DNA of 39,146 nucleotides from a virus: IMG/VR virus record IMGVR_UViG_3300050121_000224, positions 1 to 39,146 of that record; one strand, written 5' to 3'. The translations under genes and the position numbers were made by a program. This document shows positions 3,910-36,198 of the stretch, piece after piece; within the stretch, counting starts at the first letter, position 1; each line of letters starts with the position of its first letter. Below the pieces are notes generated by a model. It saw only the letters and a list, made by a program, of their open reading frames with translations, was not told the origin of the DNA and made no database searches.

Positions 3910-4098
3910 ATGAGTATTTATGAAGATAGAGATTATATAGACCGGAATGAGTACCTTGAAAGTCTTTCTGATGAATACGGTGTTGATATTGATACGGTGT
4001 TTATTCTTGCTGATATACTGGGTGAAAGTGAGGACTTTGACGGACTAATCAGTTCTTTAGAAGATGCAAGTGCATATTTTGGAGGTTCACATGACTAA
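3910..4098 (+). CDS. small acidic phage protein of unknown function
   Basis: A 62-residue acidic protein (many Asp and Glu) that I do not recognise. An in-frame TTG at 3895 would lengthen it, but the ribosome binding site GGAGG at 3897-3902 points to the ATG at 3910. It follows the helicase stop by 4 bp and overlaps the next gene by 8 bp, so it is part of the replication operon. Small acidic proteins of this sort are common between the helicase and the late regulator in clostridial phages. No membrane segment or metal site is visible. Confidence 0.7.
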   Translation: MSIYEDRDYIDRNEYLESLSDEYGVDIDTVFILADILGESEDFDGLISSLEDASAYFGGSHD

Positions 4099-4489
4099 AA
4101 AAGAGCTATCACAGCTTTATTACTTAAACCGTGAGATTGAGGAGCAGCAACGCAGGCTAAAAGAGCTTGAAAGTAGTGCTACTTCATGTACACAAACAAT
4201 AACAGGCATGCCCCATATTGCTGGAATATCTGATAAGGTTGGCAAATATGCAGCAGAGATTGCGGACCTTAAAGGGCTCTTAGATTTAAACTTAAAGAAA
4301 TGCTTTTATGAACTTCACAGGCTTAATCGGTATATAGAAAGTATAGGAGACAGTGAAATGAGAATGGTTTTGTCTCTACGATATGTAAATGGCTTAAGTT
4401 GGGAACAGGTTGCAGCAAGTATTAGTGTTTATGCAAGTGAAAACAGCGTCAAGCAGGCAGCACACAGATATTTAAAGAATAATCAATAA
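4091..4489 (+). CDS. ArpU/DUF1492-like late transcription regulator
   Basis: A 132-residue protein with a long N-terminal helical, probably coiled-coil part (Q- and E-rich, residues 5-35) and a C-terminal helix-turn-helix resembling sigma factor region 4 (LRYVNGLSWEQVAASI followed by NSVKQAAHRYL). Proteins of this ArpU/DUF1492 type end the early operon of many Gram-positive phages and are thought to switch on the late genes. The start is the ATG at 4091 behind GGAGG at 4081-4085; the frame extends further upstream but without a better site. Right after its stop come 9-bp tandem repeats and a -10-like element, a plausible target. The family is well supported; the target is inferred. Confidence 0.8.
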   Translation: MTKKELSQLYYLNREIEEQQRRLKELESSATSCTQTITGMPHIAGISDKVGKYAAEIADLKGLLDLNLKKCFYELHRLNRYIESIGDSEMRMVLSLRYVNGLSWEQVAASISVYASENSVKQAAHRYLKNNQ

Positions 4490-5035: not shown

Positions 5036-5192
5036 TTCAAGTTAAAAAATCAAAATCTCGCAAAGCCTCATAAATACTGCACATAATTTTTTTCAGTCAT
5101 TAAAAAAAAGCTAAATGAATCAAAATTCTTGAATGAATTTCAAGTTTTACATTAAAAAACTTGAATAAAAGATACAAAAAGGAGTGTTTTTG

Positions 5193-5726
5193 ATGTCAAA
5201 TGGACATGGCGGTGCAAGAATCAATTCTGGAAGACCTCGCAAAGCATTTGCCGATGCTATTATAGATGGCACAAGGAAATCGAGGATTAAGACTGTAAAA
5301 CTTGAAGGGACAGAATTGCTTGATGCAAATACTCCAACTGTCCCGGAGGTTATGGAATATTTAAAAACACCGCAAAAAGATGGTGAAGCAATTCTTTCTG
5401 AAATATTCTTTAGCCGCATTTACAAATGGCTGTCAGAGAGAAAATGCGAGAAGCTTATTGAAGCAGACTTCTTACAACGTTTCGCATTACAACAAGCCCG
5501 ATATGTACAAATAGAAAACCTTATCAGTAAAACAGGTTTTTTGGCAAAGTCATCATCGGGAACAGCTATTGAGAGTCCTCTTGAGTCAATGGCTTTGAAC
5601 AGACTTAAAATTGTAAATCAAATGCAACAGGCAATTGAGAATATTGTTAGAGCGAACTGTGAGACACCATATACAGGTTTTCCGAATTGCTCTGACCCGA
5701 TGGAACAGTTGCTTAGTGGAAGGTAA
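5193..5726 (+). CDS. terS: terminase small subunit, P27-like
   Basis: DNA-recognition subunit of the packaging terminase, 177 residues. The start GHGGARINSGRPRK is the basic RPRK-type N-terminus of P27-family small subunits. The C-terminal part, with RYVQIENLISKTG, then SPLESMALNRLKIV, matches the family's helical region with its conserved S-P-x-x-x-x-A pattern. A GTG at 5184 and a TTG at 5190 are in frame, but AAGGAG at 5179-5184 suits the ATG at 5193. It follows HNH and the probable cos site as expected, but the large subunit is not next to it: about 9.9 kb of methyltransferase and accessory genes separate the two. Confidence 0.8.
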   Translation: MSNGHGGARINSGRPRKAFADAIIDGTRKSRIKTVKLEGTELLDANTPTVPEVMEYLKTPQKDGEAILSEIFFSRIYKWLSERKCEKLIEADFLQRFALQQARYVQIENLISKTGFLAKSSSGTAIESPLESMALNRLKIVNQMQQAIENIVRANCETPYTGFPNCSDPMEQLLSGR

Positions 5727-5743: not shown

Positions 5744-6523
5744 ATGAAACTTGATTACATAGTTGAAGGTGATTGTGTTGAGGTAATGAAGTCTTTTCCA
5801 AGTAATAGTATTGATTTAACTGTAACTTCTCCGCCCTATGATGATTTAAGAAACTACAATGGCTATTCGTGGAATTTTACAGAAGTGGCCAGAGAGTTAT
5901 TTAGAGTCACAAAAGACGGTGGCGTTGTAGTTTGGGTGGTTGATGATGCTACTATAAAAGGCAGTGAAACAGGCACGAGTTTTAAGCAAGCTCTGTATTT
6001 CAAGGAGCTTGGATTTAATCTGCATGACACAATGATATATATGAAAAATGGCAGTCAATATCCTGAAAAGGTACGTTATTATAAAGTCTTTGAATATATG
6101 TTTGTGTTCAGTAAAGGAAAACCAAAAACCATAAATTTGTTATGTGATAGAGAAAATAAGTGGGCTGGCAGTTGGGGAAAAAGAAGCCTTAGAAAAAAAG
6201 ATGGAACACTTGAGCAGAAAGAAAAAGTGCCATATAAGCAGTTTGGTATAAGGTATAATGTATGGAAAATAAACTGTGGTTTTGGCTATACAACAAAAGA
6301 CAAATGGGCATATACACATCCTGCAATGTTTCCGGAAAAACTTGCTGGTGACCATATATTATCGTGGTCAAACGTAGGTGATGTTGTTCTTGATCCATTT
6401 GTAGGGAGCGGGACAACTGCTAAAATGGCTAAGCTAAATAGCAGACATTACATAGGGATTGATATAAGCAAGGAATATTGTAGTTTGGCAAATAGGCGGG
6501 TTAATATTTTAGATTCTAAATAA
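5744..6523 (+). CDS. DNA methyltransferase, SPPY type (N4-cytosine or N6-adenine)
   Basis: SAM-dependent DNA aminomethyltransferase of 259 residues, motif order IV-X-I (beta class). Motif IV is TSPPYDDLRNY near residues 27-37; the SAM-binding motif I is DPFVGSGTT with IGIDIS after it, near the C-terminus. The SPPY form of motif IV is most often found in N4-cytosine enzymes, but N6-adenine activity cannot be excluded. It starts 17 bp after the small terminase stop behind GAGGTGG. There is no restriction endonuclease next to it, so it is an orphan phage methylase, probably protecting phage DNA from host restriction. It lacks the ParB domain of the two methylases that follow. Confidence 0.88.
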   Translation: MKLDYIVEGDCVEVMKSFPSNSIDLTVTSPPYDDLRNYNGYSWNFTEVARELFRVTKDGGVVVWVVDDATIKGSETGTSFKQALYFKELGFNLHDTMIYMKNGSQYPEKVRYYKVFEYMFVFSKGKPKTINLLCDRENKWAGSWGKRSLRKKDGTLEQKEKVPYKQFGIRYNVWKINCGFGYTTKDKWAYTHPAMFPEKLAGDHILSWSNVGDVVLDPFVGSGTTAKMAKLNSRHYIGIDISKEYCSLANRRVNILDSK

Positions 6524-6551
6524 AGATTTATTGCAGGAGAATTGAAAGCAT

Positions 6552-7844
6552 ATGGACATACAAAAAATAAAGGTAGAACTTCTTAATCCGGCGGTATATA
6601 ACCCAAGGAAAGATTTGAAACCCAGTGACAAGGAATATATAAAGCTCAAGAAATCAATTGAGACCTTCGGATATGTGGAGTTGGTGGTTTGGAATAAAGT
6701 AACAGGTAACGTTGTATCAGGACATCAGAGATTAAAAGTGCTTGTTGATTTGGGATACACAGAAGTTGACTGTGTTGTTGTTGAGATTGAAGATTTAAAA
6801 AAAGAAAAAGCACTCAACATAGCCATGAATAAAATTGGTGGTGAATGGGATGAGAATAAACTTGCAAGCCTTATTGCAGATTTAGATGCCAACTCTTTTG
6901 ATGTATCTATTACTGGTTTTGATGCTGCTGAGGTTGATGAGCTTATGAATAAGTTTTATTCCAAAGAAGCTGTCCAAGATGAGTTTGATGTCGATAATGC
7001 TAAAGATGAAATTGAAGCAAAAGGTGCTATAACTCAAAAGGGTGATATATGGCTTCTTGGCAACCATAGGCTAATGTGTGGTGATAGCACCAACGCTGAG
7101 GACTTTGAAAAATTGATGAATGGCAAGCACGCACAGATGGCTGTTACTTCACCACCCTATGGTGTAGGTAAGGAATATGAAAAAGCCGGCATTGAACCTT
7201 GGTTTGAAACAATAAAACCGGTTATAAAGAACATAACAAAACATGCCGATGTTATCTGCTGGCAGATAATTGATTTGTATTGTACAGGAAATCAGTTCAT
7301 TGAACCGACTGGCTTCTATTCTGTTCAAATGTTCGCTGAGAATGGCTTTCGTCCTATTTGGATTAGGATATGGAAAAAGCAGGGTTTAAATTTTGGAGTT
7401 GCACCTTATCATTTGGTGACTAATAAGCCGGTTCAACAATATGAATATATAACTGCTTTTGCGGGCAGGGAAACTGAGGAATATAACGACCAAGAATATG
7501 TTTGGCTTTCTGCTTTTGCAGGACATAGTTATAAATTCGTAAAAAGACTTTCAAAAGAGGAACGTAAGCGATGGGGCTATAGCGGTGTATGGGAAATTTC
7601 GACAGTAAAAGCAAATAAAGAACACCCTGCTATGTTTCCGCTGGAGCTGCCTTGGCGGTGTATTAAAATGCACTCTGACATGGGCGGTATTGTGCTCGAG
7701 CCATTTAGCGGAAGTGGTACTACAATAATTGCTTGTGAGCAAACAGAACGAATTTGCTATGCTATGGAGCTATCCCCTGTTTATTGTGATTTGGCAGTCA
7801 GGCGGTGGCAGGAGTTTTCTGGAGAAGCAAGCTGTAAAATTTAG
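6552..7844 (+). CDS. ParB-domain DNA methyltransferase, SPPY type
   Basis: Fusion of an N-terminal ParB/Srx-like nuclease fold (residues about 1-100, with YNPRKDLKP and VVSGHQRLKVL) with a C-terminal beta-class DNA methyltransferase (TSPPYGVGKEY as motif IV near residue 203, EPFSGSGTT as motif I near residue 390), 430 residues. Such fusions are common orphan phage methylases. The first 200 residues are closely similar to the gene at 10153, but the catalytic motif here is SPPY and the other has DPPW, and the C-terminal halves have diverged. It begins 28 bp after the previous methylase, behind GGAGA. Right after its stop comes a strong promoter for the cargo block. Confidence 0.9.
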   Translation: MDIQKIKVELLNPAVYNPRKDLKPSDKEYIKLKKSIETFGYVELVVWNKVTGNVVSGHQRLKVLVDLGYTEVDCVVVEIEDLKKEKALNIAMNKIGGEWDENKLASLIADLDANSFDVSITGFDAAEVDELMNKFYSKEAVQDEFDVDNAKDEIEAKGAITQKGDIWLLGNHRLMCGDSTNAEDFEKLMNGKHAQMAVTSPPYGVGKEYEKAGIEPWFETIKPVIKNITKHADVICWQIIDLYCTGNQFIEPTGFYSVQMFAENGFRPIWIRIWKKQGLNFGVAPYHLVTNKPVQQYEYITAFAGRETEEYNDQEYVWLSAFAGHSYKFVKRLSKEERKRWGYSGVWEISTVKANKEHPAMFPLELPWRCIKMHSDMGGIVLEPFSGSGTTIIACEQTERICYAMELSPVYCDLAVRRWQEFSGEASCKI

Positions 7845-7873
7845 TTGAAATTTATAATATTATATATTATAAT
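7845..7873 (+). promoter_or_regulatory. sigma-A type promoter of the cargo block
   Basis: TTGAAA at 7845-7850, a 17-bp spacer and a perfect TATAAT at 7868-7873. Transcription should start near 7880, 45 bp before the next gene. It begins on the base after the methylase stop codon. This gives the cargo genes expression independent of the late operon, as in phage morons. Confidence 0.7.
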
Positions 7874-7925
7874 TGATGCTATGAGATACCCATTATTTAT
7901 ACAATAAATAGTAAAGGAAAACTAA

Positions 7926-8267
7926 ATGCGAAATAAATTGAAGTGCGGGTTATCTTATCATAAAAGAGTTTATGGGTTGATATTTATATTCATTATTTTC
8001 ATTTGCATTTTACTCATAATTTTTAATCCCAATAGAGCAAGTTTTAATAATGCTGTTTTTGAGGGCGGTTCTAATGCAATAACAGAAAATCAAGAAATCT
8101 CTAAAAATATTCGTGATATAAACTTAAAAGATTATAACAATGATGACCATCCTTTGATAAAAAGAGAAAATTACTTATTGTTTTCAATATATACTGTACA
8201 TTTTAGTGACACAAAGATATATTCTATATTAGGGATTTTAAAATCTTTTAAGTTAATAAATCAATAA
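7926..8267 (+). CDS. small membrane-anchored protein, possibly DUF4359-like
   Basis: A 113-residue protein with one strong membrane segment (residues about 17-34, IFIIFICILLIIF) preceded by positive charges, then an outside part that begins NPNRASF and ends with NYLLFSIYTVHF and a hydrophobic SILGILKSF. The pattern of an N-terminal anchor, NP-x-R, and a late LLFSIY segment resembles small DUF4359-type proteins, but I am not certain. Topology predicts an extracytoplasmic domain. It is the first gene behind the promoter at 7845, with AAAGGAAA as ribosome binding site. Base composition is more AT-rich than the flanking methylases, consistent with later insertion. It may change the lysogen's surface; that is inference. 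Confidence 0.6.
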   Translation: MRNKLKCGLSYHKRVYGLIFIFIIFICILLIIFNPNRASFNNAVFEGGSNAITENQEISKNIRDINLKDYNNDDHPLIKRENYLLFSIYTVHFSDTKIYSILGILKSFKLINQ

Positions 8268-8349
8268 CAAAAGGTCATACCGACTTCTTAGACCAGAAAT
8301 TGACTGTCTTTAGATTCCAATTATTTATAATAATCGGAGGGTAATGTTT

Positions 8350-8811
8350 ATGGGGACAAAAGTGAAAATAAAAATTTCTGACGACATTATCCTAAGAAAT
8401 AGATTGGATGAATTGTATGAGAATACTAATCAGGTAACACTGGCTCAATGGTCTTTGTGCTTGGCAAAACATATACTTGAAATCACAGCTATAGAATATT
8501 TGTATAATCAAATTGTCCTTAATGGTTTTGCTGTCAATGAGCAATGGCAAAATGAAAAAGCACGAATGCATGATGTGCGACAAGCAGGATTCAAGATTCA
8601 TCAGCTCGCAAAACAATCTGAAAATGAGATTGAAAAAGCCGCATTACGTGTTGTAGGGCAAGCTGTTGCTACAGGTCATATGAGAGAACATGCTATGGTG
8701 GCTTCTGATTACGCTGTAAAAGTTATTAATCTGTTATGTCCTAATGATATGATAGCTGTAACTTCTGAAAGACAATGGCAGTTTGATAAACTCTGTCAAC
8801 TTACAGTATAA
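8350..8811 (+). CDS. Imm-5-like putative immunity protein
   Basis: An all-helical 153-residue protein. The segment VVGQAVATGHMREHAMVASDYAVK (positions 8650-8721) matches the hallmark of Imm-5-like putative immunity proteins, in which a G-Q-A-x-A-T-x-H motif is followed by H-A and x-x-A-x-Y-A. An earlier segment with WSLCLAKHILEI fits the same family. No polymorphic toxin is seen next to it, so what it would protect against is unknown; helical proteins of this sort are also found alone in mobile elements. Two in-frame ATGs occur at 8344 and 8350; GGAGG at 8336-8340 is only 3 bp from the first and 9 bp from the second, so 8350 is chosen. Confidence 0.6.
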   Translation: MGTKVKIKISDDIILRNRLDELYENTNQVTLAQWSLCLAKHILEITAIEYLYNQIVLNGFAVNEQWQNEKARMHDVRQAGFKIHQLAKQSENEIEKAALRVVGQAVATGHMREHAMVASDYAVKVINLLCPNDMIAVTSERQWQFDKLCQLTV

Positions 8812-8881
8812 GCATAATTGGCAACTTGGGTTTTGGCTTGATATGAAATTCGCATTGTTTATATTAAAGGAAGTATGAAAT

Positions 8882-9937
8882 ATGAGTTCATATAAAAATC
8901 AACATACAGTTCCTCAAACATATCTTAAATCTTGGGAAAATTCAAATAATCAAAACTTAGTTTGGTATTATAATAATTTAACTAAAACTTATTGCCAAAC
9001 TAACGTTGATAAAATTTTATATGAATATTACATGTACTCCTTGACACTAAAAGAAGATTTGTCAATTTATGAAAAACATTTTTTAGCAAAGGCTGATTTT
9101 ATTGATATTTTTATACCTTTAAAAAATTATATTGTAAAATACAATGATCAAGTTTTAAATCAACTTGATGATTTTGCAGATAACTATGTATACTTTGAAG
9201 ATTGGATAATTTTTGATAAAAATCAAAAACAAATTTCTCAATCAAATAAAATCCACCTACAGAAAAGAATCTACACTGCAAAATCACAAAGACTTGAAAA
9301 AAAACTCTCTGAAATAGAAAACAAGTGGGGTGGAGTTAAAACAAAAATAGAGAAGGTTTGTGTGTACTATATTAATAATACTCCTATAAGTAAGCATCAA
9401 AATATTTTGAGCCATGAAGATTTAGAATATTTAAAATTATTTGTTGATCTCCAATATAGCCGAACTCCAAAATTATATGATACATACTTACAAACCGGAA
9501 AACTTATCATGAATTTAGAATGTTTTGATTTTATCTTAAAAAAAGAACCAGAAATACCAGCCCGTGCGGCTTATCTAAAAATGATAGATAGAGGTCTTAA
9601 GACAAACCAATTTTTGATAGGCCAACCTTTGAAAAATTTTAATATAAAATTATTAATTGCTAGTGAAAATCAATATTTTTTGACGAGTGATAATCCTGTT
9701 TTTAAAATTGAAGATGATAATTTCAATGGAGTAATACAGCAAAAAGGAATTTACATACCAATTACTCCGAAGATCATAGCAGTTCTATTTGGAAAGGATA
9801 ATCGATTAATTGTTACTAAGAACATTCCGGATGAAATAATTAATTCAATAAATCAGCAAATTATAAACAATTCCCAAAAAGGTTTTATTTCTTTCACGGA
9901 ACTAAAAGATACAAAGTATAATAAAGTTAATAGATAA
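8882..9937 (+). CDS. DUF4238 domain protein
   Basis: A 351-residue protein of the DUF4238 family, which has no known activity. The family's landmarks are visible: an N-terminal Q-H-x-V-P-Q-x-Y-L-K-x-W motif (residues 7-18), a central R-T-P-x-L-Y segment, the late FLTSDNPVFKI and then IYIPITPK. Codon use is extremely AT-rich, more so than the methylases on either side, which suggests separate acquisition. It is the last gene of the cargo block and starts 70 bp after the Imm-5-like gene behind AAAGGAAG. Genes of this family are scattered in mobile elements, so an accessory or defence role is possible but unproven. Confidence 0.75.
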   Translation: MSSYKNQHTVPQTYLKSWENSNNQNLVWYYNNLTKTYCQTNVDKILYEYYMYSLTLKEDLSIYEKHFLAKADFIDIFIPLKNYIVKYNDQVLNQLDDFADNYVYFEDWIIFDKNQKQISQSNKIHLQKRIYTAKSQRLEKKLSEIENKWGGVKTKIEKVCVYYINNTPISKHQNILSHEDLEYLKLFVDLQYSRTPKLYDTYLQTGKLIMNLECFDFILKKEPEIPARAAYLKMIDRGLKTNQFLIGQPLKNFNIKLLIASENQYFLTSDNPVFKIEDDNFNGVIQQKGIYIPITPKIIAVLFGKDNRLIVTKNIPDEIINSINQQIINNSQKGFISFTELKDTKYNKVNR

Positions 9938-10023
9938 TCAGAGCAATTCCCCGTCATACCAATATATCATAATTCAAGTAATCTCTGGATAAGCCTGATT
10001 TGATAATGAGTTGGTTAATAAAG

Positions 10024-10085
10024 TTAACATGTTAATCATTCCTACAATAAGCATAATGTGAAATACACATATTAATAATTAATAT
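10024..10085. promoter_or_regulatory. two perfect palindromes in the gap before the second ParB-methylase
   Basis: In the 215-bp gap between the DUF4238 gene and the next methylase, TTAACATGTTAA (10024-10035) is a perfect 12-bp palindrome, and ATATTAAT-A-ATTAATAT (10069-10085) is a perfect 17-bp one. They are candidate operator sites. I found no convincing -35/-10 pair with them. Confidence 0.4.
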
Positions 10086-10094
10086 AAAGAATGA

Positions 10095-10121
10095 AGACCA
10101 CGCTCTAAACCGGTGTGGTTT
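10095..10121 (+). other. leader hairpin before the second ParB-methylase
   Basis: AGACCACGC (10095-10103) pairs with GTGTGGTTT (10113-10121), 9 bp with two or more G-U pairs and a 9-base loop. No U-run follows. It is followed by CTCTATACCC, which recalls the GTCTATGCCC that follows the hairpin before HNH, so both may be versions of one late leader element. Confidence 0.4.
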
Positions 10122-10152
10122 CTCTATACCCAAAATTAGGAGGTAACAAAAA

Positions 10153-11409
10153 TTGAATATACAAAAAATAAATGTAAGTCAAATAAAAGCGGCAAAATAC
10201 AACCCAAGAAAAGACCTAAAGCCCGGCGATTCTGAATACGAAAAGCTAAAAAAGAGCATTGAAGAGTTCGGATATGTTGAGCCGGTTATTTGGAACTCAA
10301 GAACTGGCAATATTGTAGGAGGACATCAGAGATATAAGGTGTTAACTGCACTGGGATACAATGAAATTGATTGTGTAGTTTTGGATATTGATGAGCAAAA
10401 GGAAAAAGCATTAAATATTGCTCTGAATAAAATTAACGGTGAATTTGATATTCCTTTACTTACTGATTTGCTCAAGGATATTGGTGACGGTGGCTTTGAT
10501 GTTTCGTTTACAGGTTTTGATGCTGCTGAAATAGATGAGCTTTTCAAGGATAGTACCGCCGGCAATATTAAAGAAGATGATTTTGATGCAGATAAGGCTG
10601 CTGCAGAAATAATAACACCAATATCACAGCGAGGCGATATATGGCTTTTAGGAAAACACCGTTTAATGTGCGGGGATAGTGCTAATACGTCTGATGTTGA
10701 AAAGCTTATGGATAATAAAAAAGCGAGGTGTGTATTTACAGATCCGCCTTGGAATGTTGACTACGGTGCCGATACAAAACACCCAAGTTGGAAGCCACGC
10801 ACAATACTTAACGATAAAATGAGCACCGAGGATTTCGGTGCATTTTTATTGCAAGTATTTAGTTGTATGAGAGCAGTTTCAGAAGTCGGTTGTATGACAT
10901 ACATAGTAATGTCGGGGCAGGAATGGGGAAACCTTATGAATGCCATGCGTGCACTTGATTATCACTGGTCAAGTACAATTATCTGGAAAAAAGATAGCTT
11001 GGTTTTGTCAAGAAAAGACTACCACACTCAATTTGAGCCTATATGGTATGGCTGGGCTGAAGGAACAAGACTTTGTCCGTTAACTGATAGAAAACAATCA
11101 GATGTTTGGGAGATTCCAAGGCCTAAGGTATCGGTTGAGCACCCAACGATGAAACCAATTGCCCTTGTTGCACGGGCAATAATGAACAGCAGTTATACAA
11201 ACGATAGTATTCTTGACCTATTCGGTGGTTCTGGAACAACAATTATTGCTGCAGAACAAACAGGCAGATGCTGCAATATGATGGAACTTGACCCTAAGTA
11301 TTGTGATGTTATTATAAAAAGATATATTGAAAACACCCACAACGATGCAGGTATTTTCCTAATCAGAAATGGTGAGACAATTCTGTATAGTAGTGTTACT
11401 CAGTTGTAA
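10153..11409 (+). CDS. ParB-domain DNA methyltransferase, DPPW type
   Basis: Second ParB-methylase fusion, 418 residues. The N-terminal ParB-like domain (YNPRKDLKP, VGGHQRYKVL) is closely similar to that of the gene at 6552, through GDIWLLGKHRLMCGDS at about residue 175. The catalytic half differs: motif IV is TDPPWNVDYG, the form of N6-adenine methylases, and motif I is LDLFGGSGTT near the C-terminus. So the two paralogues probably methylate different bases or sites. The start is TTG at 10153 behind AGGAGG (10138-10143), with MNIQKI aligning to MDIQKI of the paralogue. Its last 14 bp overlap a small gene on the other strand. Confidence 0.9.
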   Translation: MNIQKINVSQIKAAKYNPRKDLKPGDSEYEKLKKSIEEFGYVEPVIWNSRTGNIVGGHQRYKVLTALGYNEIDCVVLDIDEQKEKALNIALNKINGEFDIPLLTDLLKDIGDGGFDVSFTGFDAAEIDELFKDSTAGNIKEDDFDADKAAAEIITPISQRGDIWLLGKHRLMCGDSANTSDVEKLMDNKKARCVFTDPPWNVDYGADTKHPSWKPRTILNDKMSTEDFGAFLLQVFSCMRAVSEVGCMTYIVMSGQEWGNLMNAMRALDYHWSSTIIWKKDSLVLSRKDYHTQFEPIWYGWAEGTRLCPLTDRKQSDVWEIPRPKVSVEHPTMKPIALVARAIMNSSYTNDSILDLFGGSGTTIIAAEQTGRCCNMMELDPKYCDVIIKRYIENTHNDAGIFLIRNGETILYSSVTQL

Positions 11410-11572
11410 GCTCTATATTACCATGTTCCTTTTCAAAATCTGCAATACGTTTTTTAATCATTTGTTCTAATTCCTTGTTTGTAGTTCGCCCTTCAAATTT
11501 AGCAATATATGAAATTTTATCAAGAAATAAGCGGTTAATTCGTAAAGTAAAACGTGGTAAATTATCTTTCAT
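11396..11572 (-). CDS. Arc-like ribbon-helix-helix repressor
   Basis: A 58-residue protein on the minus strand, the only minus-strand gene I can support. The sequence MKDNLPRFTLRINRLFLDKI, then YIAKFEGRTTNKELEQMIKK, has the RHH/Arc pattern: a short beta strand (RFTLRI) for DNA contact, a helix, the turn G-R-T-T-N, and a second helix. The ribosome binding site GAGGTG lies at 11580-11585 on the minus strand. It faces away from the SLOG gene at 11680, and the gap between them carries a strong plus-strand promoter and an 11-bp tandem repeat, which is likely its operator. The natural reading is an autoregulated repressor of the accessory cassette. Its 3' end overlaps the methylase gene by 14 bp. 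Confidence 0.8.
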   Translation of the reverse strand: MKDNLPRFTLRINRLFLDKISYIAKFEGRTTNKELEQMIKKRIADFEKEHGNIELTTE

Positions 11573-11596
11573 TTATGACACCTCATCAACATATTA

Positions 11597-11625
11597 TTGA
11601 CTTTATTATATAGTCATATTATAAT
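11597..11625 (+). promoter_or_regulatory. sigma-A type promoter of the SLOG/amidoligase cassette
   Basis: TTGACT at 11597-11602, a spacer of exactly 17 bp and a perfect TATAAT at 11620-11625 on the plus strand. The start of transcription is expected near 11632, about 48 bp before the SLOG start codon. This is the best promoter in the window and would drive the genes from 11680 onward. Confidence 0.75.
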
Positions 11626-11635
11626 GAAATAATGC

Positions 11636-11657
11636 AATGACGCATTAATGACGCATT
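11636..11657. promoter_or_regulatory. tandem 11-bp operator-like repeats
   Basis: AATGACGCATT occurs twice head to tail with no spacer (11636-11646 and 11647-11657), just downstream of the promoter's expected start. Each unit has the half-symmetric form AATG-N3-CATT. Tandem sites of about one helical turn are what RHH dimers bind cooperatively, and the RHH gene is next door, so this is its likely operator. Confidence 0.65.
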
Positions 11658-11679
11658 GTATTTGTAAGGAGTGGTATAA

Positions 11680-12018
11680 TTGAAAGTTGCAATTGTCGGC
11701 TCAAGGGGATTAAAGGTTAATAATTTAAAGCAATATCTACCGAAGGATGTAACTGAGATTGTGTCGGGCGGGGTAAGTGAGATTAGCATTAGTGCGGCAG
11801 GATATGCTAAAAAATTCAGACTTAAACTCACAAGATTTTTACCTAAGTACGATATATACGGAAAGCAAGCACATATGATGCGAAACATTAGTATTATTCA
11901 ATATTCAGATTTAGTAATTGCATTCTGGGATGGGCAATCAAAAGGTATAGGGTTTGTAATAGAGACGTGTAATGCTATTGGTAAGCATATAAAAGTAATT
12001 ATGGATAAAGTACAGTAA
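11680..12018 (+). CDS. SLOG/YspA-like (DUF2493-type) Rossmann protein
   Basis: A 112-residue Rossmann-fold protein of the SLOG superfamily. The nucleotide-binding N-terminus VAIVGSRG is followed by IVSGGVSEISISAAGYA, a version of the SGG-x-x-G-x-D-x-x-A site in which the usual Gly and Asp are not in place, then RN-x-S-I-I-x-Y-S-D and IAFWDGQSKG. SLOG proteins bind nucleotides or nucleotide-derived signals, and some are sensors in defence systems. The start is TTG at 11680 with AAGGAG 8 bp before it. It is the first gene behind the repressed promoter at 11597 and starts the accessory cassette. The loss of the usual site residues may mean altered ligand use. Confidence 0.78.
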   Translation: MKVAIVGSRGLKVNNLKQYLPKDVTEIVSGGVSEISISAAGYAKKFRLKLTRFLPKYDIYGKQAHMMRNISIIQYSDLVIAFWDGQSKGIGFVIETCNAIGKHIKVIMDKVQ

Positions 12019-12045
12019 TACTTGACTTACTCACAAAAAAGAGCG

Positions 12046-12082
12046 AAAATGTACCCCACTAAAATATGGGAGGGTACATTTT
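12046..12082 (+). other. 11-bp hairpin holding the ribosome binding site of the next gene
   Basis: AAAATGTACCC (12046-12056) pairs perfectly with GGGTACATTTT (12072-12082) around a 15-base loop. The only good ribosome binding site for the GTG at 12085, GGGAGGG (12068-12074), lies in the loop and the first bases of the right arm. Folding should therefore limit translation of the next gene, or the hairpin plus the T-run acts as a leaky terminator. Confidence 0.55.
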
Positions 12083-12084
12083 TT

Positions 12085-12375
12085 GTGGACAAAAAGTTAA
12101 ACAAAGCAATTGACGAGTTGATTTTAACAAGAATGCAGGATGCAGAACTGTCGAAAACATTACCACGAGAATTAAAGACTGCATATAATGCGGTTGACAA
12201 GGCGACAGAAGAACTTATTTCAACATTAAATTCCGAGCAACTGCCGGCATACAACAACCTTGACAATGCACTCAGCCATCAAAACGGCGAAGAAAAAGCA
12301 TATTTTTTCAGTAAAGGAATTTCAGATGGAATAAGAATCGTAATTAAGTTAATGGGTGGTGAGCAATATGATTAA
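12085..12375 (+). CDS. small helical protein of unknown function
   Basis: A 96-residue, probably all-helical protein that I do not recognise; it contains ELKTAYNAVDKATEELI and ends GISDGIRIVIKLMGG. Three starts are possible in frame: a TTG at 12022 with no ribosome binding site, an ATG at 12049 that lies inside a hairpin arm, and the GTG at 12085 behind GGGAGGG at a spacing of 10 bp, which is preferred. The GIRIVIKLMGG-like C-terminus is frequent in small phage proteins encoded in such cassettes. It overlaps the following gene by 8 bp, so it is likely co-translated with the amidoligase-like gene. Confidence 0.65.
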   Translation: MDKKLNKAIDELILTRMQDAELSKTLPRELKTAYNAVDKATEELISTLNSEQLPAYNNLDNALSHQNGEEKAYFFSKGISDGIRIVIKLMGGEQYD

Positions 12376-13150
12376 TAACAGCTTTATATTTACGCAAAAG
12401 GTAATAGGACAAGAGAGAAAAGCTATTGCTGCTTTAATATCTGAGATAACTGGTGAACCTGTAATATATGCAGGTGTCCCTTCGTTTGCTTATAAAGTGG
12501 GTGGGTGGTCATTGGGGAAAAGCGGGATTATTCTCTCACCACAGACCAATATTACAGAAGTTTCAACACTCCGTGCGGTAATAGACGTTCTAAAAACTGC
12601 AGGGCTTACCGCAGAGGGCGATGCAACACTTATTTTATCAGCAGAGGCTCACACCGGCGGCACACTTCGCAACCTATGCAACTTAATCAGCAGCAAGGGC
12701 AAACTGCTTGCTAAGGCACTTGGGCGGGACAACGAGGCAATACCGCAAACACTGGTGGAAGACTTAAATAATACACCGATTGATACAGTTGAAGATTTTA
12801 TGCGGGTGTATAATAGTGGGCTTGAAGCCGGAAGGTATGTTAATAGTGGCGATATATGGCTTGACCATTTACCAAATGAAATCGGTCTTTGTTTTTTCAA
12901 TGCTACACTTAATGCTGACGAAGTTTTTGCATATATAACCTTGGCACAGAAGCTAAATGAAATGGCTATAACGCAAAAGCATACAAGTTCAAGGCAGAAA
13001 TCTACAGAGAATGAGGCTTATACAATGCGGTGCTACCTTTTACGCTTAGGTTTTATTGGGGATGAATATAAAACAAGCAGAAAGCTTTTACTTTCTAAGC
13101 TAAATGGCAATCGAGCCTATAGTGGGGGTATTGTAAATGAAAGCAATTAA
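12368..13150 (+). CDS. degenerate amidoligase-like protein
   Basis: A 260-residue protein related to the amidoligase encoded at 13506. The shared parts are SP-x-x-T-x-I-x-x-V-x-x-L (ILSPQTNITEVSTLRAVI against VSPILTYEKDIEVLQEII), LRNLCNLISSKGKLLAKAL against IRNFINIIASKNDLFYKAL, and the C-terminus TENEAYTMRCYLLRLGFIG against TENEKFAMRTYLNRIGLIG. The active-site parts are missing: there is no GIEVEF, no W-K-x-x-x-D-x-S, and GIHIHLN is replaced by ATLILSAEAHT. It is therefore probably not catalytic and may pair with or regulate the intact enzyme. The ATG at 12368 is chosen, with GGTGGTGAG before it; a start at 12356 lies too close to that site. It overlaps genes on both sides. Confidence 0.75.
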   Translation: MINNSFIFTQKVIGQERKAIAALISEITGEPVIYAGVPSFAYKVGGWSLGKSGIILSPQTNITEVSTLRAVIDVLKTAGLTAEGDATLILSAEAHTGGTLRNLCNLISSKGKLLAKALGRDNEAIPQTLVEDLNNTPIDTVEDFMRVYNSGLEAGRYVNSGDIWLDHLPNEIGLCFFNATLNADEVFAYITLAQKLNEMAITQKHTSSRQKSTENEAYTMRCYLLRLGFIGDEYKTSRKLLLSKLNGNRAYSGGIVNESN

Positions 13151-13370
13151 ACTCAGAGAGCTTATAAAAATATTACAAGCCCAAGCAAAGGAGCATGGTC
13201 CCGATATATTGGTAGGAATATCTTTTGATAGTGAGGGTAATGGTTGGTCTTTAATTGCGAATGAGCAGTTATGCAGTATTGAAAATAATGTATCCAATGA
13301 ATTAGGTTCTAAGGAATTTGGTGAGGAAGATGGAACTCAAAAGGCTCTTGTTTTATGGGGTACTAATTAG
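13137..13370 (+). CDS. small protein of unknown function
   Basis: A 77-residue protein, overlapping the end of the amidoligase-like gene by 14 bp, with GGGGGT as ribosome binding site. It starts MKAIKLRELIKILQAQAKEHG, an amphipathic helix, then a stretch LVGISFDSEGNGW that looks like two beta strands with a turn, and an acidic C-terminal part ending LVLWG. The pattern recalls small phage proteins of the type found beside gamma-glutamylcyclotransferases, but I cannot name the family. It probably belongs to the same transcript as the genes upstream; the hairpin that follows with its T-run may reduce read-through into the amidoligase. Confidence 0.65.
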   Translation: MKAIKLRELIKILQAQAKEHGPDILVGISFDSEGNGWSLIANEQLCSIENNVSNELGSKEFGEEDGTQKALVLWGTN

Positions 13371-13435
13371 CTGTAATTTACACAAATTGTAGGTCTGAAG
13401 ATGTGTAGTTATTAAGCTCGAATTGACTTGATGAT

Positions 13436-13490
13436 AGTGTGTTTCAGAGGTATTATGTACCCTACCAAAAGGGAACAAACACACTTTTTT
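13436..13490 (+). terminator. hairpin with T-run before the amidoligase, leaky terminator or leader
   Basis: AGTGTGTTT (13436-13444) pairs perfectly with AAACACACT (13477-13485), with an inner CCCT/AGGG stem (13460-13463, 13470-13473), and six T follow at 13485-13490. The ribosome binding site AAGGAG of the amidoligase comes directly after. Its loop contains ATGTACCC, also present in the hairpin at 12046. Confidence 0.5.
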
Positions 13491-13505
13491 AAGGAGATTG
13501 AGTAT

Positions 13506-14408
13506 ATGAAAAGCACAGGATTTGGTATCGAGGTAGAATTCACAGGAATAACAAGAACAGAGGCGGCTGAGGTTGTAAGAAAATGCTTGAACGGCAGAAC
13601 TGAGGTTCTTGGCGACAGTTATGACACAAGAGCAATAACAGCACCAAATAACATGATTTGGAAAATAGTAAGCGACGCCAGCATAACCTGCAAAAAGAAA
13701 GAAAACGACCGAGAGATTGCGGCAAGCAGACTTTATAGCTGCGAACTGGTTAGCCCGATACTCACATACGAAAAAGACATTGAGGTTTTGCAAGAGATAA
13801 TACGCAAACTCAGACACGCAGGCGGGCTCACCGGAGCAACGGAAGGTATACACATACATTTGAACGGCTCAAACCACACGCCGCAAAGCATAAGGAACTT
13901 TATAAATATAATAGCAAGCAAGAACGACCTTTTCTACAAAGCCTTAGAGATTGAAAAGGAAAGAGCAAAATACTGCAAAAGGCTCGACGCACACTTGGTT
14001 GAGAAAATGAACGCAAAAAAACCGCAAACTTTTAAAGCAATATCCGATATTTGGTACGAGGGTTACGGAGAAAACATAAACACGCACTACCATCAAAGCA
14101 GATACCACTTTTTAAATTTACACAGCTTTTTCACTGGGCACCACACCGTCGAGCTAAGAGGCTTTAATTCAGAGCTTCATGCTGGCAAGGTACGTTCTTT
14201 CGTGATACTTGCTTTGGCACTCAATCAACAGGCACTTACTCAAAGGTGTGCAAGCTCAAAGAAGAACCAAACTGAAAACGAAAAATTTGCAATGCGAACA
14301 TACCTCAACCGCATTGGACTTATAGGCGAAGAATTCAAAAACTGCAGAGAGCATTTAACACAGGCATTAGGAGGTTGCTCCGGTTGGCGATTTCGCTCAG
14401 CGGCATAG
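13506..14408 (+). CDS. amidoligase family protein (carboxylate-amine ligase)
   Basis: A 300-residue member of the amidoligase family, related in fold to glutamine synthetase and glutamate-cysteine ligase, which form amide bonds using ATP. The motifs expected for an active enzyme are present: FGIEVEF (6-12), WKIVSDASI (52-60), CELVSP (79-84), GIHIHLN (114-120) and TVELRGFN near residue 220. The frame is open to 13428, but AAGGAG and the family start MKSTGFGIEVEF support the ATG at 13506. The known genomic partner of such enzymes is an AIG2-type cyclotransferase, and one is encoded next. The substrate is unknown; a glutamyl adduct on a peptide, protein or small molecule is the simplest idea. 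Codon use is richer in C-ending codons (AAC, GAC, TAC) than in its neighbours. Confidence 0.85.
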   Translation: MKSTGFGIEVEFTGITRTEAAEVVRKCLNGRTEVLGDSYDTRAITAPNNMIWKIVSDASITCKKKENDREIAASRLYSCELVSPILTYEKDIEVLQEIIRKLRHAGGLTGATEGIHIHLNGSNHTPQSIRNFINIIASKNDLFYKALEIEKERAKYCKRLDAHLVEKMNAKKPQTFKAISDIWYEGYGENINTHYHQSRYHFLNLHSFFTGHHTVELRGFNSELHAGKVRSFVILALALNQQALTQRCASSKKNQTENEKFAMRTYLNRIGLIGEEFKNCREHLTQALGGCSGWRFRSAA

Positions 14409-14426
14409 ATAAAACAAAGGGCACAG

Positions 14427-14446
14427 GTGGCGGCACACACCGCCAC
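14427..14446 (+). other. GC-rich hairpin after the amidoligase gene
   Basis: GTGGCGG (14427-14433) pairs with CCGCCAC (14440-14446), loop CACACA. No T-run follows, so it is more likely an RNA-stability or translation-control element than a terminator. It is unusually GC-rich for this phage. Confidence 0.5.
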
Positions 14447-14482
14447 TGTTGGCTCTAATTAATAGATTGGAGTAAGTATATA

Positions 14483-14923
14483 ATGAAAAACAAGACCAAA
14501 TATATCGCATACGGGAGCAACCTAAATCTTGAGCAAATGGCTCAGCGATGTCCTACAGCAAAGGTTGTGGGCAGTGTAATGCTCAAAGGTTATGAGCTTT
14601 TATTCAGAGGTGGTAATGGTGCTGTTGCAACAGTTGAAAAGAAAAAAGGCTGTTCAGTGCCGGTGCTTATTTGGGAGCTTGAGCCAGCGGACGAGGCGGC
14701 ACTTGATAGATATGAAGGCTACCCTACTTTCTATCGCAAAGAGCAGGTCAAGGTTCACAAAGGCAAACTGTGGCTGGAGGTTATGGTATATATAATGAAT
14801 GACGGTCACCCGCTTGGAACACCCAGCAGATATTATTACAATACAATATTGCAGGGGTATAAATCGGTTGGATTTGATGTGAGTATTCTTAATAAAGCGG
14901 TTAGAGAATCAGCTGGTAAGTAG
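14483..14923 (+). CDS. gamma-glutamylcyclotransferase family protein (AIG2-like)
   Basis: A 146-residue protein of the GGCT/AIG2 family, which releases 5-oxoproline from gamma-glutamyl amines. The substrate loop YGSNL is at residues 10-14, and the acid-base glutamate E78 lies in DRYEGYPTFY, so the active site appears intact. RVxxY-type contacts are replaced by WLEVMVYIM, normal for phage members. It follows the amidoligase and could cleave the bond that enzyme makes, giving a reversible modification, or act on host gamma-glutamyl metabolites. Ribosome binding site: GGAG at 14469-14472. The family call is secure; the link to the amidoligase is inferred from position. Confidence 0.9.
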   Translation: MKNKTKYIAYGSNLNLEQMAQRCPTAKVVGSVMLKGYELLFRGGNGAVATVEKKKGCSVPVLIWELEPADEAALDRYEGYPTFYRKEQVKVHKGKLWLEVMVYIMNDGHPLGTPSRYYYNTILQGYKSVGFDVSILNKAVRESAGK

Positions 14924-14990
14924 CATAGAATATACACATCCATTCACTAATCTTTGTGTAGTAATAAGTAGCTAAATGCCTTGCTATTAC

Positions 14991-15026
14991 TGTGTTTTAA
15001 TGGCTTAATGTAACTACAAAAACACA
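14991..15026 (+). other. hairpin before small gene at 15049
   Basis: TGTGTTTT (14991-14998) pairs with AAAACACA (15019-15026) around a 20-base loop. It lies in the 125-bp gap between the cyclotransferase and the next gene, directly before that gene's AGGAGG. Its TGTGTTT/AAACACA arms resemble those of the hairpin at 13436. Confidence 0.4.
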
Positions 15027-15048
15027 CACTGACAAGGAGGACATTAGA

Positions 15049-15318
15049 ATGACAAACTTTAGAGAAAGCTTAGTAAAAAAGGTTATAAGGCAGGAAGCAA
15101 ATTGGGTTATTGGCGGGTATGAAAACGGCATAGCAGACGGTAAGTTAAGCGAAATGCCAAGTAAAGAAGCTCTTACAAAGGAAGTTTACACAGCAGTTAT
15201 GAATTCGGACGTAGTAGAGGTTGGCGGCGGACTTATACCAGTGAGAAAAGACATTAGGTTTTTAGGGAAAGAAAGGCTACAGTTCTTGGTGGCAGAAATA
15301 ATAGAAAAAACGAAGTAA
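15049..15318 (+). CDS. small conserved-looking phage protein, function unknown
   Basis: An 89-residue protein with a strong ribosome binding site AAGGAGG at 15035-15041. It begins with a helical part (FRESLVKKVIRQEANWVIGGYENG), continues through a charged linker, and ends RKDIRFLGKERLQFLVAEII. The late F-L-G-K-E-R-L segment recalls small proteins encoded next to gamma-glutamylcyclotransferases in Firmicutes phages, but I cannot name a family. No membrane segment or metal site is visible. It belongs to the accessory block between methylases and large terminase. Confidence 0.7.
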   Translation: MTNFRESLVKKVIRQEANWVIGGYENGIADGKLSEMPSKEALTKEVYTAVMNSDVVEVGGGLIPVRKDIRFLGKERLQFLVAEIIEKTK

Positions 15319-15351
15319 TTATGACAATAATATATTTGGAAGGACATAACA

Positions 15352-15537
15352 ATGAGAGAAAAGGAATTTAAAGAAGTTATACATGAAGCACTTATTCTAT
15401 ACGTGGAGGATGGGTTAAGTGAGATTAAAGAGGTTAAGACATTTAAAAATTCAGGTGTTGATGGCATTAGAGAGGGATTAATAGTAAAAACCAAGGATGG
15501 CAGTGAGTTTCAATTAATAATAGTAAGAAGTATATAG
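15352..15537 (+). CDS. small protein of unknown function
   Basis: A 61-residue protein starting 33 bp after the previous gene behind GGAAGGA. The pattern is one helix (MREKEFKEVIHEALILYV), then alternating strands ending GLIVKTKDGSEFQLIIV, a small alpha-beta fold that I do not recognise. It is the last gene of the accessory block; a 12-bp hairpin and the start of the large terminase follow. Its coding nature is supported by position, ribosome binding site and even packing rather than by family. Confidence 0.6.
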   Translation: MREKEFKEVIHEALILYVEDGLSEIKEVKTFKNSGVDGIREGLIVKTKDGSEFQLIIVRSI

Positions 15538-15559
15538 CTGAAAACTTGAAAATACTGCA

Positions 15560-15588
15560 AAAGAGCTTACTTAATGTAGGCTCTTTTC
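15560..15588 (+). other. 12-bp hairpin before the large terminase
   Basis: AAAAGAGCTTAC (15560-15571) pairs, with one G-U pair, to GTAGGCTCTTTT (15577-15588) around TTAAT, followed by CTTTG. The A-rich left and T-rich right ends make it terminator-like in both directions. It separates the accessory block from the head genes. Confidence 0.55.
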
Positions 15589-15666
15589 TTTGTGCAATTT
15601 TTAGAAAGGTGTGTGGACTAAATCGATGAACAATACAAGTTAAAGAAATTCAAGCCTACAAGGTTT

Positions 15667-17223
15667 ATGCTACCAACATCACACTACGATAAGAAAAAAG
15701 CTGACCACGCTGTAGCTTTCATTCAAAGCTTGAAACACACAAAAGGCGTGTGGGCAGGAAAATCATTTGAATTAATTGCATGGCAGGAAGAACTTATTCG
15801 TAATGTGTTTGGTGTTATTAAGGCTGACGGATATAGGCAGTTTCAAACTGCATTTGTAGAAACAAGCAAAAAATCCGGAAAATCGGAACTCGCCGCTGCA
15901 ATTGCCCTATATACCCTTTGTGCAGATATGGAAGCTGGAGCCGAGGTATATTCTTGTGCTTCAGATAGAAAACAAGCAGGTATCGTATTTGAAGTGGCAA
16001 AGGATATGGTTAATCAATGTCCTTCACTTCAAAGGCGAGTTAAGATAATTGATTCACAGAAAAGGATTGTATATCATCCTTTGAAATCTATTTACCAAGT
16101 ATTATCATCAGATGTAGCATCAAAGTTTGGTTACAATGTTCATGCTTGTATTTTTGATGAACTGTTGGCACAGCCGAACCGTAAGCTTTACGATGTAATG
16201 ACAAAAGGTGCTGGCATTGCAAGAAAGCAACCGTTAAACTTTGTAATCACAACTGCCGGCAGTGACAGAAACAGTATCTGTTATGAAGTACATCAAAAGG
16301 CTATAGATATTCTTGAGGGTAGAAAAATAGATTCAACCTTTTATCCTGTTGTATATAGCACGCCGGACAATGCTGATTGGACAGACCCTAAGGTTTGGAG
16401 AGAAAGCAATCCATCTCTTGGTGTAACCTTTACAGAGGATGCCTTACAGTTAGCCTGTGATAATGCAAAGCAAAATCCTGCGGAGGAAATGTTCTTCCGT
16501 CAGTTCTTTCTTTGTCAATGGACACAGAGCAGTATTCGCTGGCTTCCAATGGATAAGTGGGATTTGTGTGACTTCAAGTTTGAACCCGATAGCTTAAAGG
16601 GGCGTACATGTTATGCAGGGCTTGATTTATCAAGCACAACAGATTTAACAGCATTAGTGCTTGTTTTCCCACCTGTTGATGATGGCGATAAATATTGTGT
16701 ACTCGCCTATTATTGGATACCAAAAAACAATATTGATGTAAGAGTTAGACGTGACCATGTGCCTTATGATGTATGGGAACGACAGGGATATATTTACACC
16801 ACTGAAGGTGATGTTGTTTATTATGCAGCAATTGAGAAATTTATTGTGGAGCTTAATAAAAAGTACAACATTAAGGAAATTGCTTATGATAGGTGGGGTG
16901 CAATCCAAATGTCGCAGAACTTAGATGCTTTAGGATTTACTGTTGTACCCTTTGGGCAGGGTTTTGCTTCCATGCACGCACCAACAAACGAATTATTAAA
17001 GTTAGTACTTGAGAAAAATATCGCTCATTGTGGACATCCTGTTTTACGTTGGAATATAGACAACATACAAGTTGAAACCAAAGCTGCTGCCATTAAAATA
17101 AGCAAAGAAAAATCAAATGAACGAGTGGATGGTGCAGTGGCTCTTGTTATGGCACTTGACAGAGCTTTACGGCATCAGGAAACTTTAAGTGTTTATGACG
17201 AGAGAGGAATTTTAGTATTGTGA
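15667..17223 (+). CDS. terL: terminase large subunit (HK97/phi105-like)
   Basis: Packaging motor ATPase and nuclease, 518 residues from the first ATG. The Walker A-like loop ETSKKSGKSE is at 65-74, Walker B CIFDEL at 161-166, and the nuclease aspartates start at CYAGLDLSSTTDLTALV, ending with the DGAVALVMALDRAL helix. The start is problematic: the frame continues upstream as DEQYKLKKFKPTRF before MLPTSHYDKKKADHAV, and such residues are normally present in this family. The only codon that can start the longer form is ATC at 15622, straight after an in-frame stop, with AGAAAGGTG 12 bp upstream. The ATG at 15667 has only a weak AAGG before it. A non-standard start or a small upstream mutation is possible. 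Confidence 0.92.
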   Translation: MLPTSHYDKKKADHAVAFIQSLKHTKGVWAGKSFELIAWQEELIRNVFGVIKADGYRQFQTAFVETSKKSGKSELAAAIALYTLCADMEAGAEVYSCASDRKQAGIVFEVAKDMVNQCPSLQRRVKIIDSQKRIVYHPLKSIYQVLSSDVASKFGYNVHACIFDELLAQPNRKLYDVMTKGAGIARKQPLNFVITTAGSDRNSICYEVHQKAIDILEGRKIDSTFYPVVYSTPDNADWTDPKVWRESNPSLGVTFTEDALQLACDNAKQNPAEEMFFRQFFLCQWTQSSIRWLPMDKWDLCDFKFEPDSLKGRTCYAGLDLSSTTDLTALVLVFPPVDDGDKYCVLAYYWIPKNNIDVRVRRDHVPYDVWERQGYIYTTEGDVVYYAAIEKFIVELNKKYNIKEIAYDRWGAIQMSQNLDALGFTVVPFGQGFASMHAPTNELLKLVLEKNIAHCGHPVLRWNIDNIQVETKAAAIKISKEKSNERVDGAVALVMALDRALRHQETLSVYDERGILVL

Positions 17224-17273: not shown

Positions 17274-17319
17274 CATTTTATAGTCATACGGCTTAAAATT
17301 TTATGTGAGGTGCAAATAT

Positions 17320-17682
17320 ATGAAATTCTGCTGGTGTACAATAATGGTTAATGATTTAGAACAATCAATCAAATTCTATAATGAAATTGTAGGACTTGAA
17401 GTAAGCAGGAGATTTGCAGCAGGTCCCGGAGTCGAGATAGTTTTTTTAGGAGCCGGAGAGACAAAAGTTGAGTTAATTTATAACGAAAAAAACAAAGAAG
17501 TAGATTTTGGAAAAGATATTTCTTTAGGATTTGAAGTTGAATCTGTTGACGTTATGATTGAGCTTGTAAAAGAAAAGGGTATTGATATTCATAGTGGACC
17601 ATTTCAACCAAATCCACATACTAAGTTTTTCTATGTACTTGATCCAAACAAACTGAAAATTCAGTTTGTTGAAAGCATATAA
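17320..17682 (+). CDS. VOC superfamily (glyoxalase-like) protein
   Basis: A 120-residue protein of the vicinal-oxygen-chelate superfamily: two beta-alpha-beta-beta-beta modules, the first with NDLEQSIKFYNEIVGLEV and the second with FVLDPNKLKIQFVE. The metal site seems altered: the usual first-strand histidine is replaced by the F-C-W-C segment, while the Glu of KVELIY is kept. It is not a phage structural protein; between terminase and portal it is a cargo gene with its own promoter. The ATG at 17320 behind GTGAGGTG is chosen over the GTG at 17305. Possible roles are a resistance or detoxification function, or ligand binding without catalysis. Confidence 0.8.
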   Translation: MKFCWCTIMVNDLEQSIKFYNEIVGLEVSRRFAAGPGVEIVFLGAGETKVELIYNEKNKEVDFGKDISLGFEVESVDVMIELVKEKGIDIHSGPFQPNPHTKFFYVLDPNKLKIQFVESI

Positions 17683-36141: not shown

Positions 36142-36198
36142 ATTGTCTTGCAATATGTGTAGTACAGAGTTAACATGGTGTTTGAAAGGAGAGGTTTT

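Follow-up and report, generated by a model that had tools for sequence, protein, structure and literature searches.

The DNA analysed here, which we call the window, is a 39-kb virus contig (39,146 nucleotides; IMG/VR record IMGVR_UViG_3300050121_000224), and the genes in question occupy positions 11396-15537. A first-pass annotation had placed them in the packaging region. All the genes it named are present, and the location holds, as they lie between TerS (5184-5726, phrog_83) and TerL (15667-17223). At the centre of the interval are an intact amidoligase (AL), a gamma-glutamyl cyclotransferase (GGCT) and a pseudo-amidoligase (psAL), accompanied by copies of a two-part upstream sequence that we call the two-box element.

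12368..13150, plus strand: psAL, pseudo-amidoligase of predicted glutamine-synthetase fold (phrog_2443 amidoligase, 155 bits)
13421..13480, plus strand: two-box element, divergent copy before AL (13.5 bits; its place is conserved in other loci)
13506..14408, plus strand: AL, intact Amidoligase_2, a predicted ATP-dependent amide ligase of the glutamine synthetase (GS)/GCS fold (PF12224, 221 bits, cut-off 22)
14483..14923, plus strand: GGCT, predicted gamma-glutamyl cyclotransferase (PF06094 GGACT, 51.6 bits, cut-off 22.8; phrog_2520, 158 bits)
14974..15033, plus strand: two-box element, strong copy before an 89-aa gene (24.7 bits)

The motifs reported earlier for AL (GIEVEF, WKIVSDASI and GIHIHLN) and for GGCT (YGSNL, with E78) were all found. 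In AL, the residues E9, E11, W52, D57, S59, E80, H116, H118, R199, N204, E216, and R218 are invariant in 38/38 relatives, and the catalytic residues of the GS-like site (those listed other than W52 and S59) are retained. The AlphaFold2 model of AL is confident (pLDDT 90.7); the GCS-type enzyme YbdK is its best PDB match in Foldseek, and glutamine synthetases rank lower. In well-known amide ligases of this fold, the group that is activated is a gamma-carboxyl, either of glutamate or of a residue resembling it. GGCT matches human GGCT structures (E 5.8e-5), keeps Y10-G11-S12-N13 in 67 of 68 sequences and keeps the catalytic glutamate, E78, in 65 of 68. GGCT enzymes cleave gamma-glutamyl amides, and the substrates of GGCTs of this type are small gamma-glutamyl compounds.

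AL and GGCT are neighbours far beyond this contig. We scanned IMG/VR with the AL of the window and kept the best 80 matches (the viral loci), and assembled a further 80 loci, likewise best matches, from 84,980 prokaryote species genomes (the genome loci), which were chosen via AL, so that the AL rates in them are biased. GGCT directly follows AL in all 80 viral loci, the open frames lying a median of 14 nt apart, and adjoins it in 77 of the 80 genome loci. psAL lies within 3.5 kb of AL in 48 of the 49 viral loci with room for it and near AL in 58 of 69 such genome loci. A set free of selection on AL was obtained by anchoring on psAL instead (48 phage loci showing both neighbours): AL and GGCT occur together in 15, neither in 32, GGCT alone in one and AL alone in none (Fisher p 1.5e-11). 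In a quick psAL phylogeny (145 rows), the best tree requires 22 or more changes in the presence of AL, 10 of them forced by supported branches; among independent pairs on this tree, GGCT moves in the same direction as AL in 8.6 of 10 and never in the opposite one (sign test, median p 0.004). The adjacency of AL and GGCT is thus beyond chance, and the two form a facultative mobile pair that is gained and lost as a unit; the pairing proposed in the first-pass annotation is real. Adjacency and synteny are by themselves no proof of joint function. In Arthrobacter phages, the neighbour of AL is a class II glutamine amidotransferase in place of GGCT. Class II glutamine amidotransferases can cleave gamma-glutamyl amides too; EgtC, which acts after EgtA, is an example.

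The pair is found in two kinds of element, phages (in the order ParB-methyltransferase, psAL, AL, GGCT, TerL) and integrative elements. No terminase is within reach in 29 of the 80 genome loci, and in at least 14 of these AL-GGCT, usually with psAL, is followed by two serine recombinases; one locus (L053) has a type IV coupling ATPase and a Replic_Relax protein. As terminase-free integrative elements carry the trio of AL, GGCT, and psAL, a role specific to packaging is unlikely, and we rejected it. The window itself has two tandem large serine recombinases at 36175-39080, an arrangement like that which follows AL-GGCT-psAL in integrative elements.

Recognition of psAL as a relative of AL depends on the method of comparison. 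Its score against PF12224 is 13.9 bits, under the cut-off of 22; profile alignment to AL with hhalign gives a probability of 99.9 and an E-value of 1.7e-34 over 212 columns. In an alignment of 80 psAL members, the AL positions E80, R199, and N204 fall in deletions, and the common residues differ from those of AL at E9, E11, H116, H118, E216, and R218; none of 77 psAL frames has the AL catalytic motifs. What the two proteins share is a C-terminal module (N258, K260, R264, R269, G271, G274, and R281), kept in 76-80 of 80 psAL and 35-38 of 38 AL sequences, and psAL has residues that are near-invariant across 73-80 diverse members. The AlphaFold2 model of psAL is confident (pLDDT 89.8) and matches glutamine synthetase, YbdK, and Dop in Foldseek; the models of both proteins therefore match this fold, but psAL does so without the catalytic residues. 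The pattern of conservation and the confident models indicate that selection kept the shared module while dropping catalysis. The earlier description of a degenerate amidoligase-like protein was correct as to the loss of catalytic residues; mere decay does not describe psAL, which by its residues and predicted fold is a conserved pseudoenzyme family of the glutamine-synthetase fold. In the open-access literature, the recognition of psAL as a pseudoenzyme appears to be new.

Two further ideas about psAL were discarded. An obligate partnership with AL in phages was rejected, as AL is missing from 47 of 58 intact loci selected by motif and from 33 of the 48 psAL-anchored loci. Outside phages, 8 of 9 psAL copies adjoin AL, a count read by eye from the coordinates in 20 genomes that were chosen via AL and are thus biased. 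The C-terminal extension as a mark of those AL proteins that psAL accompanies was unsupported, since Arthrobacter AL has R269 and G271 as well. The psAL of the window and of its closest relative has an insert of about 40 residues (window 12752-12871) that is missing from 98% of other psAL.

Upstream of AL and psAL in most phage loci is the two-box element, CTTG[C/A]TAT-N10-12-AGAGTGATATATGTAC. Its position weight matrix stays below threshold throughout 400 kb of random sequence, and with a looser two-box model the highest score in 1 Mb of composition-matched random sequence is 15.7 bits. Ten whole genomes, each several Mb long, contain 23 exact sites; the gene that follows is in every case psAL, AL or one that encodes a serine recombinase or a small phage protein, and the reversed control pattern gave no site in the same genomes. 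When viral contigs were scanned with the pattern alone, the next gene among the matches listed was psAL at least 62 times, AL at least 14 times and another gene at least 61 times; the others among those listed include genes for serine recombinases and for a few small phage proteins, and we therefore rejected the idea that the element is specific to the cassette. Recurrent small families follow it (L101-L219), for example DUF7678 and a 118-aa family starting MKEIKAFEEAK. In the genome loci, the element precedes AL in 47 of 51 phage-type cases, whereas it does so in 3 of 17 integrative-type ones. A short hairpin with a GAAA loop is frequent at the element. Rfam gave no credible match for it at gathering or relaxed thresholds, and on that result a structured RNA was rejected. 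The element is probably a phage promoter; its core motif, searched as text, was not found in the open-access literature, within which it appears to be new.

The protein encoded at 4064-4489 of the window resembles sigma region 4 and belongs to phrog_36 ('transcriptional regulator'). Relatives of it lie 3-7 kb upstream of the element, on the same strand, in five genomes, which makes this regulator a candidate reader of the element, although synteny alone would yield such a placement.

The first-pass annotation had joined these genes with a SLOG protein into a single, independently regulated cassette. The features that this claim adds lie at the upstream end of the interval.

11396..11572, minus strand: RHH (Arc-like) putative repressor (Pfam Arc, 19.0 bits, cut-off 20.4; PHROG Arc-like repressor, E 4.7e-5)
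11597..11625, plus strand: predicted sigma-70-type promoter, TTGACT-17-TATAAT, driving SLOG (11/12 matches)
11638..11657, plus strand: tandem direct repeat TGACGCATT, copies at 11638 and 11649 (9-bp unit, 11-bp period)
11680..12018, plus strand: SLOG-family protein with a degenerate nucleotide-binding motif (phrog_289, 46 bits, weak)

The minus-strand RHH gene, the strong promoter and the tandem repeat upstream of SLOG are as described earlier, although the RHH match is itself below the cut-off; the repeat, read from the sequence, is likely to be the RHH operator. No profile matches the SLOG copy of the window above its Pfam cut-off, and the family call is upheld by homologues in two other loci, L205 and L149, of which the former matches PF10686 (YAcAr, SLOG) with 32 bits, over the cut-off of 28.2. 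The nucleotide-binding loop reads GGARGVD in both homologues and GGVSEISI in the window, and with this motif lost, the suggestion that SLOG acts as a nucleotide-linked sensor is weakened. SLOG is present in 1/80 viral and 0/80 genome AL loci, and we rejected it as part of the AL-GGCT core on these counts. Co-occurrence around amidoligase homologues, the check proposed with the cassette, is thus borne out for GGCT (80/80 and 77/80) and fails for SLOG. In L149 and L205, a minus-strand RHH gene followed by a plus-strand SLOG gene recurs upstream of psAL with AL missing from both; RHH and SLOG belong together as a separate, optional accessory insert.

The closest relative found, L333, is 92% identical to the window in terminase, 85% in ParB-methyltransferase, 82% in small terminase, and 68% in psAL. 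Its order is ParB-methyltransferase, psAL, terminase, without RHH, SLOG, the DUF6809-like gene, AL or GGCT, which implies that psAL is the resident gene of the methyltransferase-terminase interval and that the others are accessory inserts around it. A single cassette does not survive the rarity of SLOG at AL loci, the occurrence of RHH-SLOG without AL, the retention in L333 of psAL without the other genes, and the separate elements before AL and psAL; the interval consists instead of three separate units, namely AL-GGCT, psAL and RHH-SLOG.

The remaining features of the interval are small.

12085..12375, plus strand: DUF6809-like small protein, optional (PF20648, 25 bits, just under the cut-off of 27)
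13137..13370, plus strand: small uncharacterised protein, 77 aa (no family above cut-off)
15049..15318, plus strand: small uncharacterised protein, 89 aa (phrog_22747, weak, E 0.0019)
15352..15537, plus strand: small uncharacterised protein, 61 aa (single homologue, in L334)
15559..15589, plus strand: terminator-like stem-loop followed by a T-rich stretch, between the cassette and terL (RNA fold)

The DUF6809-like gene is present in 4 of 81 AL loci, the window included, and the 77-aa gene has no counterpart in the 80 AL-locus relatives. A strict terminator scan did not call the stem-loop at 15559..15589, owing to its long loop. Around the ribosome-binding site of the DUF6809-like gene (window 12045-12085) is a 12-bp stem-loop, AAAATGTACCC...GGGTACATTTTTT, which may be an attenuator or else a two-box element that has diverged. 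Further upstream, the region 5744-11409 has three genes for DNA methyltransferases of the N6/N4 type, two of them with ParB-like N-terminal domains. Between both ParB-methyltransferase genes is a second accessory insert (7926-9937) with a DUF4359-like fragment, an Imm5-like putative immunity protein (PF21805, 134 bits) and a DUF4238 protein (PF14022, 100 bits); in L333, the two methyltransferase genes are directly adjacent, without an insert of this type. A protein of the glyoxalase/bleomycin-resistance superfamily (17305-17682; PF00903, 51 bits) occupies the gap between terminase and portal.

The co-occurrence of AL and GGCT is already published. Phage modules that combine Amidoligase_2 with AIG2/GGCT are reported to have been predicted by Iyer et al. 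(2009). The Terrisporobacter phage TPDSL_ph1 is described as having 'two amidoligases preceding a GGCT' (PMC11253131), LM41 prophages have two amidoligases and a GGCT (PMC11318856), and orf21-24 of Tn6164 are listed as a 'hypothetical/virulence-related protein', an amidoligase, AIG2/GGCT, and a terminase (PMC3485107). We infer from its size and its place before the amidoligase that orf21 of Tn6164 is a psAL. As far as the accessible text of these papers goes, all three systems resemble the window in having the same families in the order psAL-AL-GGCT-terminase; both proteins are named amidoligases there, or one a 'virulence-related protein', and that text does not describe psAL as a pseudoenzyme or as independent of AL, nor the version in integrative elements, nor the two-box element. 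LUZ24/PaP3-like Pseudomonas phages have a 'putative peptidoglycan modification module' of amidoligase, GATase, ATP-grasp, COOH-NH2 ligase, and GGCT (PMC11945000, PMC3890496). It is like the window in combining Amidoligase_2 and GGCT in one phage gene cluster and differs from it in the ATP-grasp, GATase, and COOH-NH2 ligase genes, which the cassette of the window lacks.

We suggest that AL, using ATP, would most likely form an amide between an amine and the gamma-carboxyl of glutamate (or of a similar acid) and that GGCT would take the gamma-glutamyl group off again as 5-oxoproline, so that the two may install and remove one linkage, or protect and deprotect it, on an amine target, for which protein lysine, a cell-envelope amine, and a polyamine are candidates. 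The idea of such a put-on/take-off system comes mainly from the recurrent pairing of AL with an enzyme of opposite chemistry. The reversible modification proposed in the first-pass annotation fits in this respect, as opposed chemistry agrees with the folds and the intact residues; the part that it gave to SLOG as a sensor does not. The non-catalytic psAL probably binds the same partner or target as AL, given the C-terminal module common to both; it could serve as a decoy, as an adaptor or as a partner in oligomers. Transcription of psAL and AL in phages would probably start from two-box promoters specific to phages, with the sigma-region-4-like regulator as a possible reader. We regard this combined reading, with gamma-glutamyl written on and removed from an amine by AL-GGCT, psAL as a binding pseudoenzyme, phage two-box promoters and a separate RHH-SLOG unit, as evenly balanced between right and wrong. 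EgtA-EgtC, PuuA-PuuD, and BtrJ-BtrG are precedents in which a gamma-glutamyl group is installed and later removed. They resemble AL-GGCT in coupling a gamma-glutamyl amide ligase to a remover; they belong to defined biosynthetic or catabolic pathways, whereas AL-GGCT has no pathway and a pseudoenzyme alongside.

Several observations count against the proposal. Opposed enzymes in one transcription unit would make a futile cycle unless they are separated in time or target. psAL stands without AL in 33/48 psAL-anchored phages, which indicates a role of psAL that is independent of AL. The Foldseek matches are significant, yet they have global TM-scores in the modest range of 0.40-0.47. In the window, the two-box element before AL scores weakly, at 13.5 bits, and the link between regulator and element is one of synteny within one phage group. 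A more specific version of the proposal, a three-part reversible gamma-glutamylation of proteins in which AL writes, GGCT erases and psAL recognises the target or regulates, with AL-less phages using psAL alone as a decoy or blocker, is in our judgement unlikely.

The pair could instead modify the cell surface or cell wall and so block other phages. Iyer et al. (2009) predicted such superinfection exclusion for the amidoligase of phiEco32, a prediction that, in the accessible text of later papers, is repeated and cited for TPDSL_ph1 and the LM41 prophages, each with two amidoligases and a GGCT. Presence in prophages and integrative elements would suit the protection of a resident element, but the phage-type element and the late-gene position suit a lytic programme better than a quiet lysogen, and the scanned cassette genes include no ATP-grasp, GATase or COOH-NH2 ligase, the partners of the LUZ24 type. 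We consider this explanation unlikely, though still a rival. A metabolic gamma-glutamyl cycle, in which small products of AL resembling gamma-glutamyl-amines or gamma-glutamyl-cysteine are recycled by GGCT and the thiol or polyamine pools are altered, or ATP and glutamate drained, would agree with the resemblance of the AL fold to GCS-like YbdK and with the small gamma-glutamyl compounds for which this type of GGCT is known. For a plain metabolic enzyme, however, a conserved pseudoenzyme would be an unusual partner, and neither a transporter nor a third enzyme of a pathway was seen to be conserved alongside the pair, which leaves such a cycle rather unlikely.

A unit of defence or counter-defence, also raised in the first-pass annotation, would have AL modify a protein of the host or of a rival phage, GGCT reverse this and SLOG sense a nucleotide signal. 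The genes do sit as accessory cargo, being missing from L333 despite its 92% identical terminase, and there is other cargo nearby (Imm5-like and DUF4238). SLOG, however, is unlinked to AL, moves with RHH and has a degenerate binding motif, and a PADLOC scan of the cassette genes returned no credible match; the suggestion is weakened accordingly, and we hold it to be quite unlikely. That psAL is a decaying amidoligase copy and AL-GGCT are passengers without joint function might be supposed from the lost catalytic residues and from how often AL-GGCT is missing. The pattern of conservation already contradicts this: psAL has its near-invariant residues in diverse members together with a confident fold, and the linkage of AL to GGCT persists through independent gains and losses. 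We find it very improbable indeed.

Proteins of the psAL type are common in mobile elements of Firmicutes. Their recognition as pseudoenzymes gives them a predicted fold, a role that can be tested, as a binding partner of AL or as its target, and grounds for abandoning a misleading name. The two-box element, as a probable promoter, offers a handle on a phage regulon that spans psAL, AL, and serine integrases, and AL-GGCT, shared by phages and integrative elements, stands out as a clean candidate for a reversible modification with gamma-glutamyl groups that mobile elements would employ.

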